DNA from: a virus
IMG/VR virus record: IMGVR_UViG_3300019873_000006
Span: 1 to 21,590 of that record
Length of the DNA: 21,590 nt
Direction: 5' to 3' (one strand)
Part shown: piece after piece, positions 4,067 to 20,936 of the stretch
Numbering within the stretch: the first letter of the stretch is position 1
How the letters are laid out: each line of letters opens with the position of its first letter
Made by a program: the position numbers and the translations under genes
Notes under the pieces: model-generated
What the model saw: only the letters and a program-made list of their open reading frames with translations
What the model was told of the DNA's origin: nothing
Database searches by the model: none

Positions 4067-4101
4067 GATGGTGCCTCTCATCAGGGGGATTTGTGGGGGA
4101 G

Positions 4102-4173
4102 CTCCCGAGGCAGGATTCGAACCTGCGATACGCGCATTAACAGTGCGCTGCCTTGCCGCTTGGCTACTCGGGA
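4102..4173 (-). tRNA. tRNA-Asn (anticodon GTT)
   Basis: The 72-base minus-strand sequence folds as a full cloverleaf. The acceptor TCCCGAG pairs with CTCGGGA, the anticodon arm is GCGCA-CTGTTAA-TGCGC, and the T arm is GCAGG-TTCGAAT-CCTGC. The anticodon GTT lies at 4141-4139. The discriminator base is G and CCA is not coded at the 3' end. It probably supports phage translation. Confidence 0.95.
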
Positions 4174-9079: not shown

Positions 9080-9105
9080 GATGGGCTCCTTGGGATGGGA
9101 GGGAG

Positions 9106-9177
9106 TATCTGGGGCTGGGATCGAACCAGCGACACACGGCTTATGAGGCCGATGCTCTACCACTGAGCTACCCAGAT
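9106..9177 (-). tRNA. tRNA-Met (anticodon CAT)
   Basis: The full cloverleaf reads: acceptor ATCTGGG/CCCAGAT with discriminator A, D arm GCTC-AGTGGTA-GAGC, anticodon loop CTCATAA, and T arm GCTGG-TTCGATC-CCAGC. The anticodon lies at 9145-9143. The top anticodon-stem pair is T-T mismatched. It lacks the GGG/CCC stem and the 1-72 mismatch of initiators, so it is an elongator Met or, if lysidine-modified, an Ile2 tRNA. No CCA is coded. Confidence 0.94.
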
Positions 9178-12260: not shown

Positions 12261-12437
12261 GTGGACGGCCTACTCACCCCGCAAGAACTCGCCCAGTACC
12301 TGAAGGTCAAGGTCAGGACCCTCGACAACTGGGCATGCCAGCACAAAGGACCGCCCTTCATCCAAGTGGAAGGCGTCCGACGGTACGAGATGGACGAAGT
12401 CCGCAACTGGGTCGAAGAGCGGAAGGTGCGTCACTGA
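12261..12437 (+). CDS. Excisionase/MerR-type winged-helix DNA-binding protein (HTH_17)
   Basis: The GTG at 12261 follows GAAGAGG by four bases, giving 58 residues; an upstream TTG start at 12240 is less likely. LLTPQELAQYLKVKVRTLDN is the HTH_17 helix-turn-helix, followed by the wing (PPFIQVEGVRRYEMDEV) and a final helix (NWVEERKV). Such proteins serve as excisionases, plasmid replication cofactors or repressors. With no integrase here and a RepA-like helicase two genes downstream, a role in replication control is at least as likely as excision. Confidence 0.82.
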   Translation: MDGLLTPQELAQYLKVKVRTLDNWACQHKGPPFIQVEGVRRYEMDEVRNWVEERKVRH

Positions 12438-12684: not shown

Positions 12685-13986
12685 ATGGCAAAACTCTTCA
12701 ATCCGCTCCCCCATGACTCCGGGGAGGTGATTCCCGCACACTTCGTCGGCGAGATGAATGACTACGGATGGGCGCCGGAAATTCCATTCGACCCCGACGG
12801 TGAAGGCGAGAAGTCGCGCCTGGAAAAGCTCCGCTCCGAATTCGAGGCGGCCCAACCCGACCTCGTAATGAAGAAGGAGTTCGAGCTCGCCGCAACAGAG
12901 ATCGCCCGCGACAACCGGCGGAAGATCCGCGAAGCGTACCTGACATCCGATGAAGGCCGGCAGGAGGCCGCCGAGCGCTTCGAGTCACTCATCGGGATCG
13001 ACGACCTCGAAGACCCCGAGCCGATCATCGAAGGGTTCCTCTACCGCGACACCGTGGCGAGGACATTCGGACCGCCCAAGTCGTTGAAGTCGTTCGTGAC
13101 GCTCGACATGGCGGCCTGCGTTTCCCTCGGCATTCCGTGGCAGGGGGTTGAGACCACACAGCAGACGGTGCTCTATGTGGTCGCCGAGGGTGGCCGCGGA
13201 ATGAGAAAGCGCAAGCTCGCCTGGAACGAACATCACGGCACCGATATGAAGGTGCTGTTCTACCCGCGGCCCGTGCAACTCGGCAAGCCAGAAGAGATGT
13301 ACGACCTGATCTCCTTCTGCATGGTGAAGCAGGTCGGCTACGTGGTGATCGACACGCAGGCCCGATGCACCGTCGGCGTCAACGAGAACGACAACACCGA
13401 GATGGGCGAGATCGTCGCCTCCTGCGACATCCTGAAGCAGCAGACAGGCGCCTGCGTGCACTTGGTACACCACTCGGTGGGCAACGACGACTCCAGGGCC
13501 CGTGGCGCCACAGCGTGGGACGGTGCGGTCGACTCGGAGTTCGCCGTGAAGCGTGACACCAGGGACCGCACCCAGGTCAAGATGGTCTCGAAGTTCCAGA
13601 AGGATGAGGGGGAGGCCGACGACGTCGAGATGGAAACCCGGGAAGTGGGGATGTCGCTGGTGCTCGTCGGGGGGAGCGGATCCGGGGGCGGTGGGGTCGA
13701 CGCCGCTAATCTGCCACCTGTGACCGAGGGGCTGCTGCCCTACCTGAACGTGCTGACCGATTATCAGGCGACTGGGGCCACACAGAAGGAACTCGTCGAG
13801 CAGACGGGTCGGGACAAGTCCACGGTCTCTCGGAACGTCAATAAGCTCGCAGAGTTCCAGGTGGTCGAACTCAAGGGGTCGAAGATCGTTCTGACGGAGC
13901 TCGGGTGGCAGGTTCTCCGGTGGCGGAGCCGTCACGAGCCGGCCACTCAGCCCCCGCCCAGGAGCGTTCAGGACCCCCTGGAATGA
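12685..13986 (+). CDS. RepA-like AAA ATPase / replicative helicase with C-terminal winged helix
   Basis: A 433-residue protein. After a charged helical N-terminus (1-110), a RecA-fold ATPase (AAA_25/RepA type) follows: Walker A TFGPPKSLKS (Gly129-Ser136, lacking the usual central Gly), Walker B VGYVVIDTQ (Asp223), and VHLVHHSVGNDDSRARGATA (258-277) as the sensor and arginine region. A Gly/Ser linker (330-338) joins a winged-helix domain (363-410; ATQKELVEQTGRDKSTVSRN). It should unwind or load at a replication origin, and a repeat array starts directly after its stop codon. The GTG at 12679 is an alternative start that overlaps the upstream stop codon. Confidence 0.88.
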   Translation: MAKLFNPLPHDSGEVIPAHFVGEMNDYGWAPEIPFDPDGEGEKSRLEKLRSEFEAAQPDLVMKKEFELAATEIARDNRRKIREAYLTSDEGRQEAAERFESLIGIDDLEDPEPIIEGFLYRDTVARTFGPPKSLKSFVTLDMAACVSLGIPWQGVETTQQTVLYVVAEGGRGMRKRKLAWNEHHGTDMKVLFYPRPVQLGKPEEMYDLISFCMVKQVGYVVIDTQARCTVGVNENDNTEMGEIVASCDILKQQTGACVHLVHHSVGNDDSRARGATAWDGAVDSEFAVKRDTRDRTQVKMVSKFQKDEGEADDVEMETREVGMSLVLVGGSGSGGGGVDAANLPPVTEGLLPYLNVLTDYQATGATQKELVEQTGRDKSTVSRNVNKLAEFQVVELKGSKIVLTELGWQVLRWRSRHEPATQPPPRSVQDPLE

Positions 13987-13987
13987 G

Positions 13988-14130
13988 TGCAACTCGGGCC
14001 GTCGAGTTGTATGGCGAGTTGCACGCCTAGTTGTATGGGTTGCACTGGAGTTGTATGAGAGTTGCACTGCCTGACCTGGGAAGTTGCAGCGAGTTGTATA
14101 GCTTCAGTGTGACCGGGTACCTGAGTTGCA
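13988..14130 (+). repeat. Iteron-like AGTTGTA/AGTTGCA array; candidate replication origin
   Basis: The seven-base unit RGTTGYA occurs at 14005, 14017, 14029, 14038 (GGTTGCA), 14049, 14060, 14082, 14092 and 14124, and once reversed at 13988-13994. Most steps are 9-12 bases, close to a helical turn, and the first six copies alternate TGTATG with TGCAC, making a higher-order unit of 20-24 bases. The array starts two bases after the RepA-like helicase stop codon and holds no gene. Its position and phasing fit origin iterons bound by a replication initiator; this is inference. Confidence 0.7.
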
Positions 14131-14168
14131 TGAGTTGGGGGGGTTTACGAAGTAACCCCCCATGCAAC
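14125..14168 (+). other. Compound hairpin at the end of the repeat array
   Basis: GTTGCAT (14125-14131) pairs with ATGCAAC (14162-14168). Inside it GGGGGGTT pairs with AACCCCCC around an eight-base loop, with GAGTT bulged on one side. The outer arms reuse the iteron sequence in both directions. It may be a transcription terminator for the helicase operon or a structured origin element such as a primer or melting site. Confidence 0.6.
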
Positions 14169-14211
14169 AACCCCACAACTTGATCTTGAGAAAAGAAGGA
14201 GACCCATCCCG

Positions 14212-14721
14212 ATGAAGATTCAGCCTGGACAGTGCAAGAGGTGCAAGGCGGTCATCTATCTGGTGAGGGAGGCGGGTATCACCTGGACGGCAGACATGAC
14301 ACCGCTGGACGCCCAGACAGTGATCCAGGCCCTCGTGGGCGGACGAGAGATCTACGCGGTCTCCCTGGACGGCAAGCAACTGAAGCCGGCCCCCGGACAC
14401 CTGGTGAAGTCCTGGCTGTCGGATGGGCGGACGATCGTCGCGAGCCACCCGTGCCCGACCGCGGTCGCAGGAGCGCTCCTGAGCGCCGTCGAGAAGGCGG
14501 GGCGGGAAGTTGTGCCGGGAAAAGGTCCCGGGCCGTCTGTGCCCCCAAAGAATCGCTCCTCGGGCCCCCTCCGCTCCTCGGCGACTGCCCCCACTGCGGA
14601 ACACCCGGGTTCTAGGCCGACGTGCGACGGGTGCAGCCAGCCGTGCGCCGATGGAACCTACGCGTCCATCGACCTCGGAGACCTGACAGTCTGGGCACAC
14701 CACGTCGACACCTGCCCATGA
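14212..14721 (+). CDS. Two-zinc-site protein of unknown function
   Basis: MKIQPGQCKRCKAVIYLVRE opens this 169-residue product, after an AAGGAG site. An N-terminal domain (1-85) holds CKRC (8-11) and HPCP near 79-82. A Pro/Ser-rich linker (100-130) leads to a C-terminal Cys/His group: CDGCSQPC then HHVDTCP. The layout, with a folded zinc domain at each end of a flexible linker, suits nucleic acid binding. It is the first gene after the candidate origin, which hints at a replication or regulatory role. Confidence 0.75.
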   Translation: MKIQPGQCKRCKAVIYLVREAGITWTADMTPLDAQTVIQALVGGREIYAVSLDGKQLKPAPGHLVKSWLSDGRTIVASHPCPTAVAGALLSAVEKAGREVVPGKGPGPSVPPKNRSSGPLRSSATAPTAEHPGSRPTCDGCSQPCADGTYASIDLGDLTVWAHHVDTCP

Positions 14722-15915: not shown

Positions 15916-16803
15916 TCATCGGGTCAAGCGCCCCTGCCACACAACAGGCAGAGCATTACGGTTACCGCCCACCAACTGCCGAGCCCTCCGCTGAGCCGGT
16001 ATAGCGGCCAGCACAAGCTCCGTAGCGTCCTCTTCAGGGAGGAGCATCAACTGGGTCTCCCGAGCCTTCCCGGAGGCGCACACCATCGCGCGGCCCCTCA
16101 CCTCCGAAGGCGTACGGTGAGGCCCGCAATCGGCCGCCAGCCACTTCCAGGCCTGCGGAGACGATCCGATCAGAGCCTTCGTCCCGAAGTTCTCCAGGAG
16201 ATCGGCAGTCAGGCCCGAGCGGTACGAAGCAAGCTGGGCGAAGGCCACCACATGGATCTGGACGGCCCGGCCCATGAACATCAGGTCGGAGAACGCGTCC
16301 AGGGCGCCATAGCCACCCGGGGTGTTCCGCTTGTCCAGGACCTTGAGAGCGGTCAGCGTGGCGTTCGTCTCCTCGAAGACCACCACGATCCGCGGACCGA
16401 TCAGACCCTCACCAGACTTGATCACCTGATTACGGCGCTGAAGCTCGTAACCCAGATTGACCAGCGAGGAGCCGATCTGCTCCGTGGTGTCCGCGTAGTG
16501 CACCACAGGGGCCAGGGGACGCGCCCACATGTGGGAGTGCATCTTCCTGTCCAGCACCACCACCAGGTCCCCCAGGGTGAGCCTCTGGACGGCAATCGAG
16601 CGGGCTATCGTCGACTTGCCCTTACCGGTGGGTGCGTTCACCAGGATGTGAGGCGACTCGGCATCCAGGTCAACGGTCACCGGACCTTGCGTACCCTCAC
16701 CGAGAATCACCTCGGATCCGGTAGTCCCCGAGTAGGTGACCACCTCGGGGATCTCAAGCCCTCCCAGCCCTGTGTAGGCGTTCGGGCGGTTCATGAAGTC
16801 CAC
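15916..16803 (-). CDS. FtsK/Tra-like DNA translocase ATPase
   Basis: The GTG at 16803 follows GGAG by eight bases, giving 295 residues; longer frames lack a ribosome site. Walker A is VNAPTGKGKST (57-64), Walker B is RIVVVFEETN (138-147), and a later VVAFAQLASYRSG segment matches the glutamine sensor region of FtsK/SpoIIIE/TraB proteins. RGRAMVCASGKARETQLMLL follows, as in the end of that motor domain. There is no membrane anchor, and the winged gamma domain is not evident. It could pump double-stranded DNA, as Streptomyces Tra proteins do, or act in genome partition or packaging. Confidence 0.85.
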   Translation of the reverse strand: MDFMNRPNAYTGLGGLEIPEVVTYSGTTGSEVILGEGTQGPVTVDLDAESPHILVNAPTGKGKSTIARSIAVQRLTLGDLVVVLDRKMHSHMWARPLAPVVHYADTTEQIGSSLVNLGYELQRRNQVIKSGEGLIGPRIVVVFEETNATLTALKVLDKRNTPGGYGALDAFSDLMFMGRAVQIHVVAFAQLASYRSGLTADLLENFGTKALIGSSPQAWKWLAADCGPHRTPSEVRGRAMVCASGKARETQLMLLPEEDATELVLAAIPAQRRARQLVGGNRNALPVVWQGRLTR

Positions 16804-17015
16804 TGTGTCCACTCCTTGTCGTCCGGCTGGAAGGGGACCCACCCAGGGCCATGCCCACATGATGTGCCGTACCAGCCCTCTCTTCAGTTAGCTACGGTGA
16901 TCAACTCCGGCGACAAGGAACCAGGGCTCAGCCCACTTGAACCATGCCAGCGAAGATCTCCGCCTTACCCGGTCACACAGTGAGGGCTCGGCCCTGTCTG
17001 TGATCGAGCGTCGAG

Positions 17016-19093: not shown

Positions 19094-19222
19094 GACCTTG
19101 CTCCTTCCAACCAGATCCAACTACCCTGAGTGCTACCCGACCGACTCGAACGGTCCCTATCGGACACCTGTCCAACAGTCCCAACCTGGGAAGGAGCGAC
19201 CTTGCGAACGTGCAATTCCTGC

Positions 19223-19531
19223 CTAGATCCAACTCTTGGTGAGGTTGACCCCCCGACGGATCATGCCGACTCGGACGGTTTCGCTGAACCCCTGACCGAT
19301 CTTTGCCCAGGTCGGGAGGAGTGTGGCCAACGGTTCTTGGGTGATGGCGAGGCTCTTGGTGAGGCCGAGGTCGACGACGGTTTCGCCGTCCTGGTCGAAC
19401 GCGTACCAGGTGGGGCCCTCGACGCTGTGGACCTTGAACTGGCCGTTGGACCCGGGGAAGGTGACGATCTTGCCGACCAACGCGATCTTGTCGACGTCGG
19501 CCTGGGGGAGGGTGGTGGTCTGGACGCTCAT
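19223..19531 (-). CDS. Hypothetical 102-residue protein
   Basis: The start is the ATG at 19531 or, six bases upstream and in frame, at 19537. The product MSVQTTTLPQADVDKIALVG continues with strands (KIVTFPGSNGQFKVHSVEGP and WYAFDQDGETVVDLGL) and a helical end (ATLLPTWAKIGQGFSE). The beta-rich first half resembles an SH3-like barrel. It follows the 36-residue membrane gene on the same strand. Function unknown. Confidence 0.68.
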   Translation of the reverse strand: MSVQTTTLPQADVDKIALVGKIVTFPGSNGQFKVHSVEGPTWYAFDQDGETVVDLGLTKSLAITQEPLATLLPTWAKIGQGFSETVRVGMIRRGVNLTKSWI

Positions 19532-19791
19532 GATCATCCCTGCTTCCTTGATCGTTCGGACAAGATCATCGTCATGATCGGCCACACGGCCAGGGGGGAG
19601 ACCATGATGATCACCCGACCCAGTTCGATTGCGTTTGCAAACATGATCTTGTCCTCTCTTGATCTTGGCTTGACCTTGATCGGTAAGCCCGTGACCAGGG
19701 GGAAGATCAACTTCCCCTTGATCATGGACCGGCCGGTCAAGATCAACTGTCAAGATCACCCAGGTGGGGGATGGCCGGGTCCTTTTCGATC
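19532..19791. repeat. GATC cluster
   Basis: GATC starts at 19532, 19550, 19564, 19576, 19609, 19645, 19661, 19678, 19705, 19720, 19741, 19754 and 19788: thirteen in 260 bases, where about one is expected by chance. Most sit in TTGATC, AAGATC or TGATCA context. Five more lie between 19896 and 20047. Part of it comes from start-codon leaders (GATCATG), but most copies lie within or between short frames. It may be a methylation-sensitive or protein-binding region. Confidence 0.6.
19534..19644 (-). CDS. 36-residue membrane peptide
   Basis: A GAGAGG site lies eight bases ahead of the ATG at 19644. The product is MFANAIELGRVIIMVSPLAV then WPIMTMILSERSRKQG: one membrane helix with a basic tail. The same frame continues upstream to an ATG at 19725 (63 residues), which lacks a ribosome site but would use the otherwise empty sequence. 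It lies inside the GATC cluster, so its coding status is moderately uncertain. Confidence 0.45.
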   Translation of the reverse strand: MFANAIELGRVIIMVSPLAVWPIMTMILSERSRKQG

Positions 19792-19967
19792 ATGTACTGG
19801 AGGGCGACCAGGTAGTTTGCTCGGAGGCCCTTCACGTTGCGATTGCGAAGCCTGGGCTGGGGGTTTGCTTCGAGGTTTGCGATTGCAACCTCGGTGATCT
19901 TGCCGGTGAGGAGAGAGATCGACTGGCCACGGACAAGCCGGACCGGGGTGGGAAGGGGGGTGATCAT
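19743..19967 (-). CDS. Hypothetical 74-residue protein
   Basis: GGAGG lies eight bases ahead of the ATG at 19967. The product MITPLPTPVRLVRGQSISLL contains a strand and helix (TGKITEVAIANLEANPQPRL), a basic stretch (RNRNVKGLRANYLVALQYMI) and an acidic end. It is the first gene of the leftward block beside the terminase intergenic region. A longer overlapping frame (to 20127) has poor composition and is rejected. Function unknown. Confidence 0.68.
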   Translation of the reverse strand: MITPLPTPVRLVRGQSISLLTGKITEVAIANLEANPQPRLRNRNVKGLRANYLVALQYMIEKDPAIPHLGDLDS

Positions 19968-20130
19968 TTGGTGCCTCCAGTTGATCTTGGGTACCAGGTG
20001 GGGTTTTCCTCCTGGTGTTCCCCCAGGATATGCCCCGGAGCATGATCATCTCTACCCCTGGAGGGTAAAGAGAAGGCAAAGTCTTCAAGTGTCCGAGTTG
20101 TGGTGGTACATGCACATACGTACCCATGTG

Positions 20131-20290
20131 TGGGGGTAGGTGTGGGTTTAAGGTGTTAGGTCTCCCTTGCCCTGGTATGGGGTGGTGTAGGTGGGTAGGT
20201 GTGGGTATGGGGTGGTATGTCCGTATTGAGTGGGTATGTATGCATGTGGGTGGGTGTGCCCTGGTATGGGGTGATGTGGGGTGATAGGTC
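20131..20290 (+). repeat. G/T-rich tandem-like repeat tract
   Basis: A 20-base unit CCCTGGTATGGGGTG with flanks occurs at 20169-20188 and again at 20258-20277 with one difference. A third partial copy, GGTATGGGGTGGTATG, is at 20204. Between them GGTGTGGG, GTAGGTGGGTAGG and GTGGGTGGGTG fill the tract. The plus strand is nearly free of C and A. Runs of three or four G separated by short loops could form G-quadruplexes. Confidence 0.7.
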
Positions 20291-20386
20291 CTAGATGTCC
20301 GTTTTGTCGCTTCTGCGAGGTTTGCTCTTGATCATCCCGGGCCCAGCGACGCTCCAGTATCTACCGGATGCTCAATTTCCCATTTG

Positions 20387-20409
20387 TAATACCGCCAGGT
20401 AACACCTAG
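20387..20409. promoter_or_regulatory. Operator-like element upstream of the terminase genes
   Basis: GTAATACC (20387-20394) is followed three bases later by AGGTAACACCT (20397-20407), so two half-related units lie side by side. The second matches the window-wide motif exactly. It ends 17 bases before the small terminase ATG, with the ribosome site AGGGTGAGG between. TGTAAT at 20386 is a possible -10 box, in which case the element would cover the transcription start. Confidence 0.6.
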
Positions 20410-20423
20410 AAAGGGTGAGGTAG

Positions 20424-20936
20424 ATGGCAAGTAAGGATGTGGTTGTCCAGCCGGGCAACGGTGACGAGTTCCAGGGCTCCGAGGGCTCGAAGGCTCTGAC
20501 GCCCAAGAGGAGCGACGGCACCCCCGCCCGGAGGAACCACCTGGAGCGCGCGTGGGTGAAGCACCGCCTGATCAGGGACTTCGCTCTGGGCGAGAAGACC
20601 GGTCAGCAGATGGCCGCGGAGTACGGGGTGTCGGCGACGTCGATCTCGGCGTTCAAGAAGCGGAATCTGATGGCCATCGAAGAGGTTAGGAACAACCTCG
20701 CCGACGAGTATGCGGGGGTGTGGGTGGCGCAGAAGATGGCGCGCATCCAGGAGTATCAGGAGGCGGCGGAGAAGATGGCCGATGGGCGTTCTCCGCGTAA
20801 CCAGGAGGTCCTGGTGAGCATCTTGAAGGCTGTCGCCGAGGAGCTGGGCCAGTTGCCGGCGCGTCAGCAGGTCAACGTGTCGACCGAGAACGTCACCTAC
20901 CAGGTGGTCGGCATCCCGCTGGAGGATCTCCAGTGA
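20424..20936 (+). CDS. Terminase small subunit
   Basis: A 170-residue product: a disordered, charged N-terminus (MASKDVVVQPGNGDEFQGSE), a helix-turn-helix (LGEKTGQQMAAEYGVSATSI, then SAFKKRN, about 56-82) for binding the packaging site, a long coiled helix (LADEYAGVWVAQKMARIQEY), a second helix for oligomerisation, and a short tail (VTYQVVGIPLEDLQ) likely to touch the large subunit. The call is strengthened by the large terminase that starts inside its stop codon (GTGA). GAGG precedes the ATG. Confidence 0.85.
   Translation: MASKDVVVQPGNGDEFQGSEGSKALTPKRSDGTPARRNHLERAWVKHRLIRDFALGEKTGQQMAAEYGVSATSISAFKKRNLMAIEEVRNNLADEYAGVWVAQKMARIQEYQEAAEKMADGRSPRNQEVLVSILKAVAEELGQLPARQQVNVSTENVTYQVVGIPLEDLQ

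Follow-up and report, generated by a model that had tools for sequence, protein, structure and literature searches.

The alpha protein of satellite phage P4 unites origin recognition and helicase in one polypeptide that acts on short repeats. The Rep helicases of the SaPIs use their C-terminal domain to recognise iterons situated directly 3' of the helicase gene (PMC7581432), and Cch2 of SCCmec behaves like SaPI Rep (PMC6092414). At oriV of RSF1010 the iterons occur together with stem-loops (as summarised in PMC4234260), and pRN1 has a stem-loop origin 3' of its replication-protein gene, the hairpin varying in sequence and not in structure (PMC4234260).

We have analysed here a locus in a 21.6-kb IMG/VR virus record (the window, referring to the entire stretch of 21,590 nucleotides) in which a short iteron array directly follows a gene for a RepA-type helicase. 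A sequence-only reading had proposed an iteron origin beside a replicative helicase, and comparison with other phages supports that proposal well, through the place, layout and phasing of the array and its co-variation with the helicase C-terminal domain. We consider it likely that positions 13987-14211 constitute the phage replication origin and that the helicase encoded just upstream recognises it. The features are collected in Table 1.

Table 1. Features of the window, with coordinates and strand.
Feature	Position	Strand	Remarks
tRNA-Asn (gtt), tRNA-Met (cat)	4101-4173, 9105-9177	-	
Arc-like RHH homologue	9848	same strand as helicase	upstream of helicase
Small HTH_17 (excisionase-like) protein	12261..12437	+	Pfam HTH_17 E=6e-11
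Helicase gene	12685..13986	+	RecA-type motor AAA_25, residues ~108-330; C-terminal winged helix, ~346-417
Winged-helix-coding part	13720..13935	+	residues ~346-417; proposed iteron reader
Reverse iteron AGTTGCAC	13987..13994	-	directly 3' of helicase stop
Six forward iterons	14005..14067	+	5' of box
Box CTGACCTG	14071..14078	+	in 22-bp gap between sixth and seventh repeat
Three forward iterons	14082..14131	+	3' of box
Compound hairpin	14125..14168	.	G6/C6 stem flanked by last forward iteron and inverted iteron
AT-rich 40-mer	14179..14218	.	possible melting site; 58% AT, top 0.1% of contig
Downstream gene	14212..14721	+	cysteine-rich, conserved; 43% identity to Dagobah 38784-39326
ATPase-like protein	15916-16860	-	P-loop GKGKS; 44-65% identity across phage group

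Judged by its genes, the window is part of a phage genome in synteny with that of Streptomyces phage Dagobah (MT711977), for which S. coelicolor M600 serves as a host. Gene order matches, and the identities are 67-69% for the terminase, 46% for the exonuclease, 48% for the ATPase encoded at 15916 and 43% for the product of 14212. The helicase at the locus is an exception, the window and Dagobah proteins having no significant BLASTP similarity, and the paper describing Dagobah (PMC7650747) does not contain the word 'iteron'. The ATPase is well conserved and serves as a marker of the phage group, and an Rfam scan detected the two tRNAs and nothing else. We also note that 19120-20424 spans the terminal-repeat junction of the phage, as judged by synteny with Dagobah, which has 1187-bp direct terminal repeats; because the window crosses a junction of this type, the record is probably a permuted assembly.

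The 12685 protein matches Pfam AAA_25 (E=6e-29), and its C-terminal part has weak sequence-profile matches to MarR-like winged helices, with a predicted helix-helix-helix-wing-helix order and a pLDDT mostly of 88-98 over the block. The AlphaFold model of the whole protein was built from 28 sequences (pLDDT 83.6) and used instead of one built from five (pLDDT 54). Its top PDB fold matches are RSF1010 RepA (1nlf, 1g8y), with 1olo also among them, and the model suggests that the helicase core folds like RSF1010 RepA, and with high confidence it has a winged helix at residues 348-417.

The nine forward copies and one reverse copy of RGTTGYA described from the sequence were borne out (13987-14131), with GTTG starting at 14006, 14018, 14030, 14039, 14050, 14061, 14083, 14093, and 14125 on the + strand, and at 13993 on the - strand. 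Shuffles of the interval contain on average 0.15 copies of RGTTGYA and never more than 3, and AGTTGYAY matches nine times in the whole window, eight of them inside the array, where 0.95 would be expected (an approximately ten-fold excess); chance repeats are rejected. A coding repeat is likewise rejected, because 3' of the helicase stop none of the six frames of the interval is open beyond short ORFs. The iteron core is about 8 bp, repeated every 11 bp or so, and the proposed helical phasing holds, the successive spacings (12, 12, 9, 11, 11, 22, 10, and 32 bp) giving a best period of 10.8 bp that was reached in 0.2% of trials with random spacing (p=0.002). The alternation of TAT and CAC subtypes is present in the first six copies and breaks afterwards (TGCAG, TGTATA, TGCATG). 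It holds in 7/8 steps, and by our own count a randomly ordered set of 4+5 copies would alternate this well with a probability of about 0.07, so that the alternation is weak. It is not seen in the relatives, which have a fixed CTGACCTG box instead, and the idea that two proteins bind the two subtypes in turn is unsupported.

The compound hairpin that had been described after the array, with iteron copies as its arms, is also present; the outer arms GTTGCATG (14125-14132) and CATGCAAC (14161-14168) enclose GGGGGGTT..AACCCCCC, and DNA folding gives z=-3.05. The strongest AT-rich 40-mer near the array falls within the top 0-1.1% of the contig in each phage, but the AT-rich neighbour is soft evidence for an origin since the 40-mer of the window shares bases with the ribosome-binding region of the 14212 gene. 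GC skew, which had been suggested as a check, was unhelpful, with a maximum at about 14.5 kb in the window, yet a minimum near the array in Dagobah. Two perfect TTATCCACA DnaA-type boxes lie inside the helicase gene of one relative (L130), 72-84 bp before the stop and beside the array, and perfect boxes are absent from the other relatives.

Relatives were found through the flanking genes and the helicase families, and the interval from the helicase stop to the 14212 homologue was read in nine phages including the window. The homologue, present in 8/8 relatives, marks the locus, and all eight have an array at the matching place. Persistence of the repeats in close relatives had been expected of an origin, and the array is indeed kept, although the letters of the repeat change, from AGTTGYAY in the window to TGAACCGG in Dagobah, GGGAACCGG in L127, CGAACCCTA in L129 and L132, CGAAACCT in L130, TAAACCTC in L135, TGCGAACA in L136, and GTGAACCCAA in L141. 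The common layout is forward repeats, a central CTGACCTG box, further repeats, a hairpin, and an inverted repeat. In 9/9 phages the array is followed by an equivalent hairpin and by the repeat of that phage in inverted orientation, and seven (the window, L006, L127, L129, L130, L132, and L141) have a reverse copy at the array 5' end. All nine arrays have a best period within 10.7-11.3 bp, which reaches significance individually in five. Dagobah resembles the window in its synteny, its array, a hairpin, two CTGACCTG boxes and a homologue of 14212 at the matching position, but has a helicase of another lineage and another repeat. In L006 (38550-38658), and also in L129, L132, and L141, the array extends backwards into the coding part of the helicase, where it encodes a repetitive C-terminal tail, for example EPVGEPVGEPV.

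A search with a single helicase protein gave only two distant loci, and family alignments were needed to assemble a set of 34 helicase loci, consisting of the nine phages together with further phage loci and loci of Streptomyces and Mycobacterium genomes. An array, scored by comparing the 7-mer copies in 350 bp at the 3' end of the helicase with those in the other windows of each locus (p at most 0.05), is present at 25 of these loci of actinobacterial phages and prophages, in 21 of which it is the strongest repeat window, and host-genome loci also carry arrays behind the helicase; nine of the 34 have no array at this threshold. The window itself scores five copies (p=0.024), a figure that is too low on account of the degeneracy of its repeat. 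A first scan of viral contigs for the window's repeat pattern yielded, among the matches listed, no locus that encodes a related helicase. At three loci in Streptomyces genomes (L265, L266, and L267) the arrays behind the helicase are composed of palindromic CCTGTCC/GGACAGG rather than direct repeats, the L127 array resembles this type, with GGGAACCGGTTCCC, and recognition may differ at such palindromic arrays.

The candidate reader of the repeat can be sought in these comparisons. Among the nine phages, similar repeats go with similar C-terminal domains of the helicase (correlation 0.60, p 0.001) and with similar cores (0.53, p 0.002), and repeat similarity does not co-vary with the small HTH (-0.27), 14212 (-0.05), the small terminase (-0.31), or the 15916 ATPase (-0.14). 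With 24 loci, the correlation of repeats with the winged helix is r 0.75, or 0.68 in a partial Mantel test given the core (p 0.0003), and the core given the winged helix is not significant (0.08, p 0.11); after thinning of close pairs the value for the winged helix is 0.48 (p 0.0007). One locus (L275) has a core similarity of 0.66 to the window and a winged-helix similarity of 0.08, and its repeat is GACACC where that of the window is GTTGYA. By this measure the repeat sequence follows the helicase C-terminal winged helix, and not the motor core, the small HTH, or 14212. Common descent of neighbouring DNA may account for part of the co-variation, although linkage alone fails as an explanation because 14212, which is equally near to the array, does not co-vary. 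Among the binders that the sequence-only reading had put forward, the helicase therefore stands, and the 12261 and 14212 proteins do not co-vary with the repeats, which makes the 12261 HTH protein an unlikely iteron binder. That the repeat changes with the DNA-binding tail while one short box remains constant suggests recognition, by the helicase itself, of the origin adjoining its own gene.

This box, CTGACCTG, is the sole array element conserved in the relatives, and was missed in the earlier reading. The form CTGACC(T/A)G is found inside the array on the same strand in 8/9 phages, and L127 has the variant TTGACCTG on the opposite strand. On either strand, and with the wider consensus TCTGACCTGCG, the box is present in 22/24 arrays, where other windows of these loci lead one to expect 2.7. 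Since the motif was noticed before it was tested it is post hoc, but 15 of the 24 loci lie outside the nine defining phages and it holds in these as well. A literature search returned no paper with the box together with 'iteron', and it is a guess that the box or the hairpin may provide a primase start site or a site for a host factor.

There are several alternatives to consider. The locus could be an origin whose iterons are bound by a separate small protein, either the HTH_17 product of 12261 or the RHH product of 9848, which then brings in the helicase in the way that RepC recruits RSF1010 RepA. The genes of these two small DNA-binding proteins lie upstream in the same orientation, RHH proteins commonly recognise short repeats spaced by about one turn, and the RHH protein has a weak co-variation with the repeats in the nine phages (r 0.27, p 0.075). 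We nonetheless regard this arrangement as unlikely, in that the RHH protein is well conserved and the repeats are not, and the HTH_17 protein, besides its lack of co-variation (r -0.27), is not detected in L135, whose array is kept, and is 56% identical between the window and L127, yet their repeats differ.

Two further readings dispense with an origin. In every relative the array directly precedes 14212, from which a strong hairpin separates it, and it could be an operator or attenuator of that gene with the hairpin as terminator. However, neither a sigma-70-like promoter nor a T-tailed terminator was found, the repeats track the winged helix of the upstream helicase rather than the 14212 protein, and host-genome loci likewise have arrays behind the helicase, so that a control region seems to us very unlikely; an operator for 14212 was considered and rejected. 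Centromeres of the ParR/Omega type typically have phased short direct repeats and an Arc-like protein is encoded upstream, but we would be most surprised if the array were the partition site of a plasmid-type prophage, as the repeats co-vary with the helicase, no ParA/ParM-like or TubZ gene is present among the seven neighbours scanned, and none is annotated in the complete Dagobah genome. With no ParA, ParM, or TubZ motor gene beside the array, partition sites of the ParR/parC and TubR/tubC types are rejected.

We return to an origin recognised by its own helicase, which is favoured by the position and layout of the array, the co-variation, the core fold, the phasing, the AT-rich neighbour, the DnaA boxes of L130, and the analogy with SaPI and SCC elements, and weakened by the nine of 34 loci lacking an array, a GC skew that is uninformative or opposite, and the absence of DnaA boxes from most relatives. 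We infer a mechanism in which the C-terminal winged helix of the 12685 protein would bind the 8-bp iterons, and their spacing of about one helical turn, on one face of the DNA, would position several helicase subunits side by side. A RecA-type hexameric motor with the RSF1010 RepA fold would then assemble next to the GC-rich hairpin and AT-rich stretch, and the assembled helicase would open the DNA and load itself. The TCTGACCTGCG box may bind a second, common factor, or may be a fixed start or priming point.

For most phages of Actinobacteria no mapped replication origin is known to us. We lean, with somewhat less assurance than for the window, towards an undescribed and widespread class of such origins, in which RepA-type helicases with a swappable winged helix would read a private array behind their own gene, the TCTGACCTGCG box in nearly every array would be the site of a shared second factor or a fixed priming point, and wing and iterons would be exchanged jointly as a specificity cassette. 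An array with a TCTGACCTGCG box behind a RepA-type helicase would provide a sequence rule for finding these origins, and the relatives offer natural swaps for testing recognition. That otherwise unrelated arrays share the box raises a question that is directly testable.

The locus has points in common with several known systems. P4 alpha similarly unites recognition and helicase in one polypeptide on short repeats, but has a fused primase, and no primase domain was found in the 12685 protein. The pRN1 ORF904 system has a C-terminal winged helix and a hairpin origin behind the gene, but lacks iterons and uses a primase-SF3 helicase protein. Initiators of Rep_3-type plasmids bind iterons of 17-22 bp with tandem winged helices, compared with a core of about 8 bp every 11 bp or so in the window, and none was found among the neighbours of the locus. 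The RepA-RepC-oriV system of RSF1010 (IncQ) has the closest motor fold, a RepA-type RecA fold, the window helicase being a putative hexamer, and likewise combines iterons with stem-loops; its hairpins are primase start sites, and a hairpin is present here. In RSF1010, however, a separate RepC binds the iterons, whereas the window helicase carries a fused winged helix and no RepC-like gene was found among the seven neighbours of the locus, and membership of the RSF1010 replicons is rejected on the absence of a separate RepC. The Rep-ori system of SaPI/PICI elements shares with the window iterons directly 3' of the helicase gene and, as does SCCmec Cch2, a helicase with a C-terminal DNA-binding domain, in our case a predicted winged helix. 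It differs in having two iteron sets that flank an AT-rich site, where the window has one mainly one-way array with the AT-rich part after the hairpin, and in having a DUF927/D5-type motor, where that of the window is AAA_25, RecA-type, with a predicted RSF1010 RepA fold. Membership of the SaPI family is rejected on the motor type and the two-sided iteron arrangement, and the window system is further set apart by its hairpin, its fixed CTGACCTG box, and its carriage by tailed phages of Actinobacteria. By analogy, the locus may work as a SaPI Rep-ori does but with a RecA-type motor, and would thus represent a RecA-type counterpart of the SaPI self-loading initiator.
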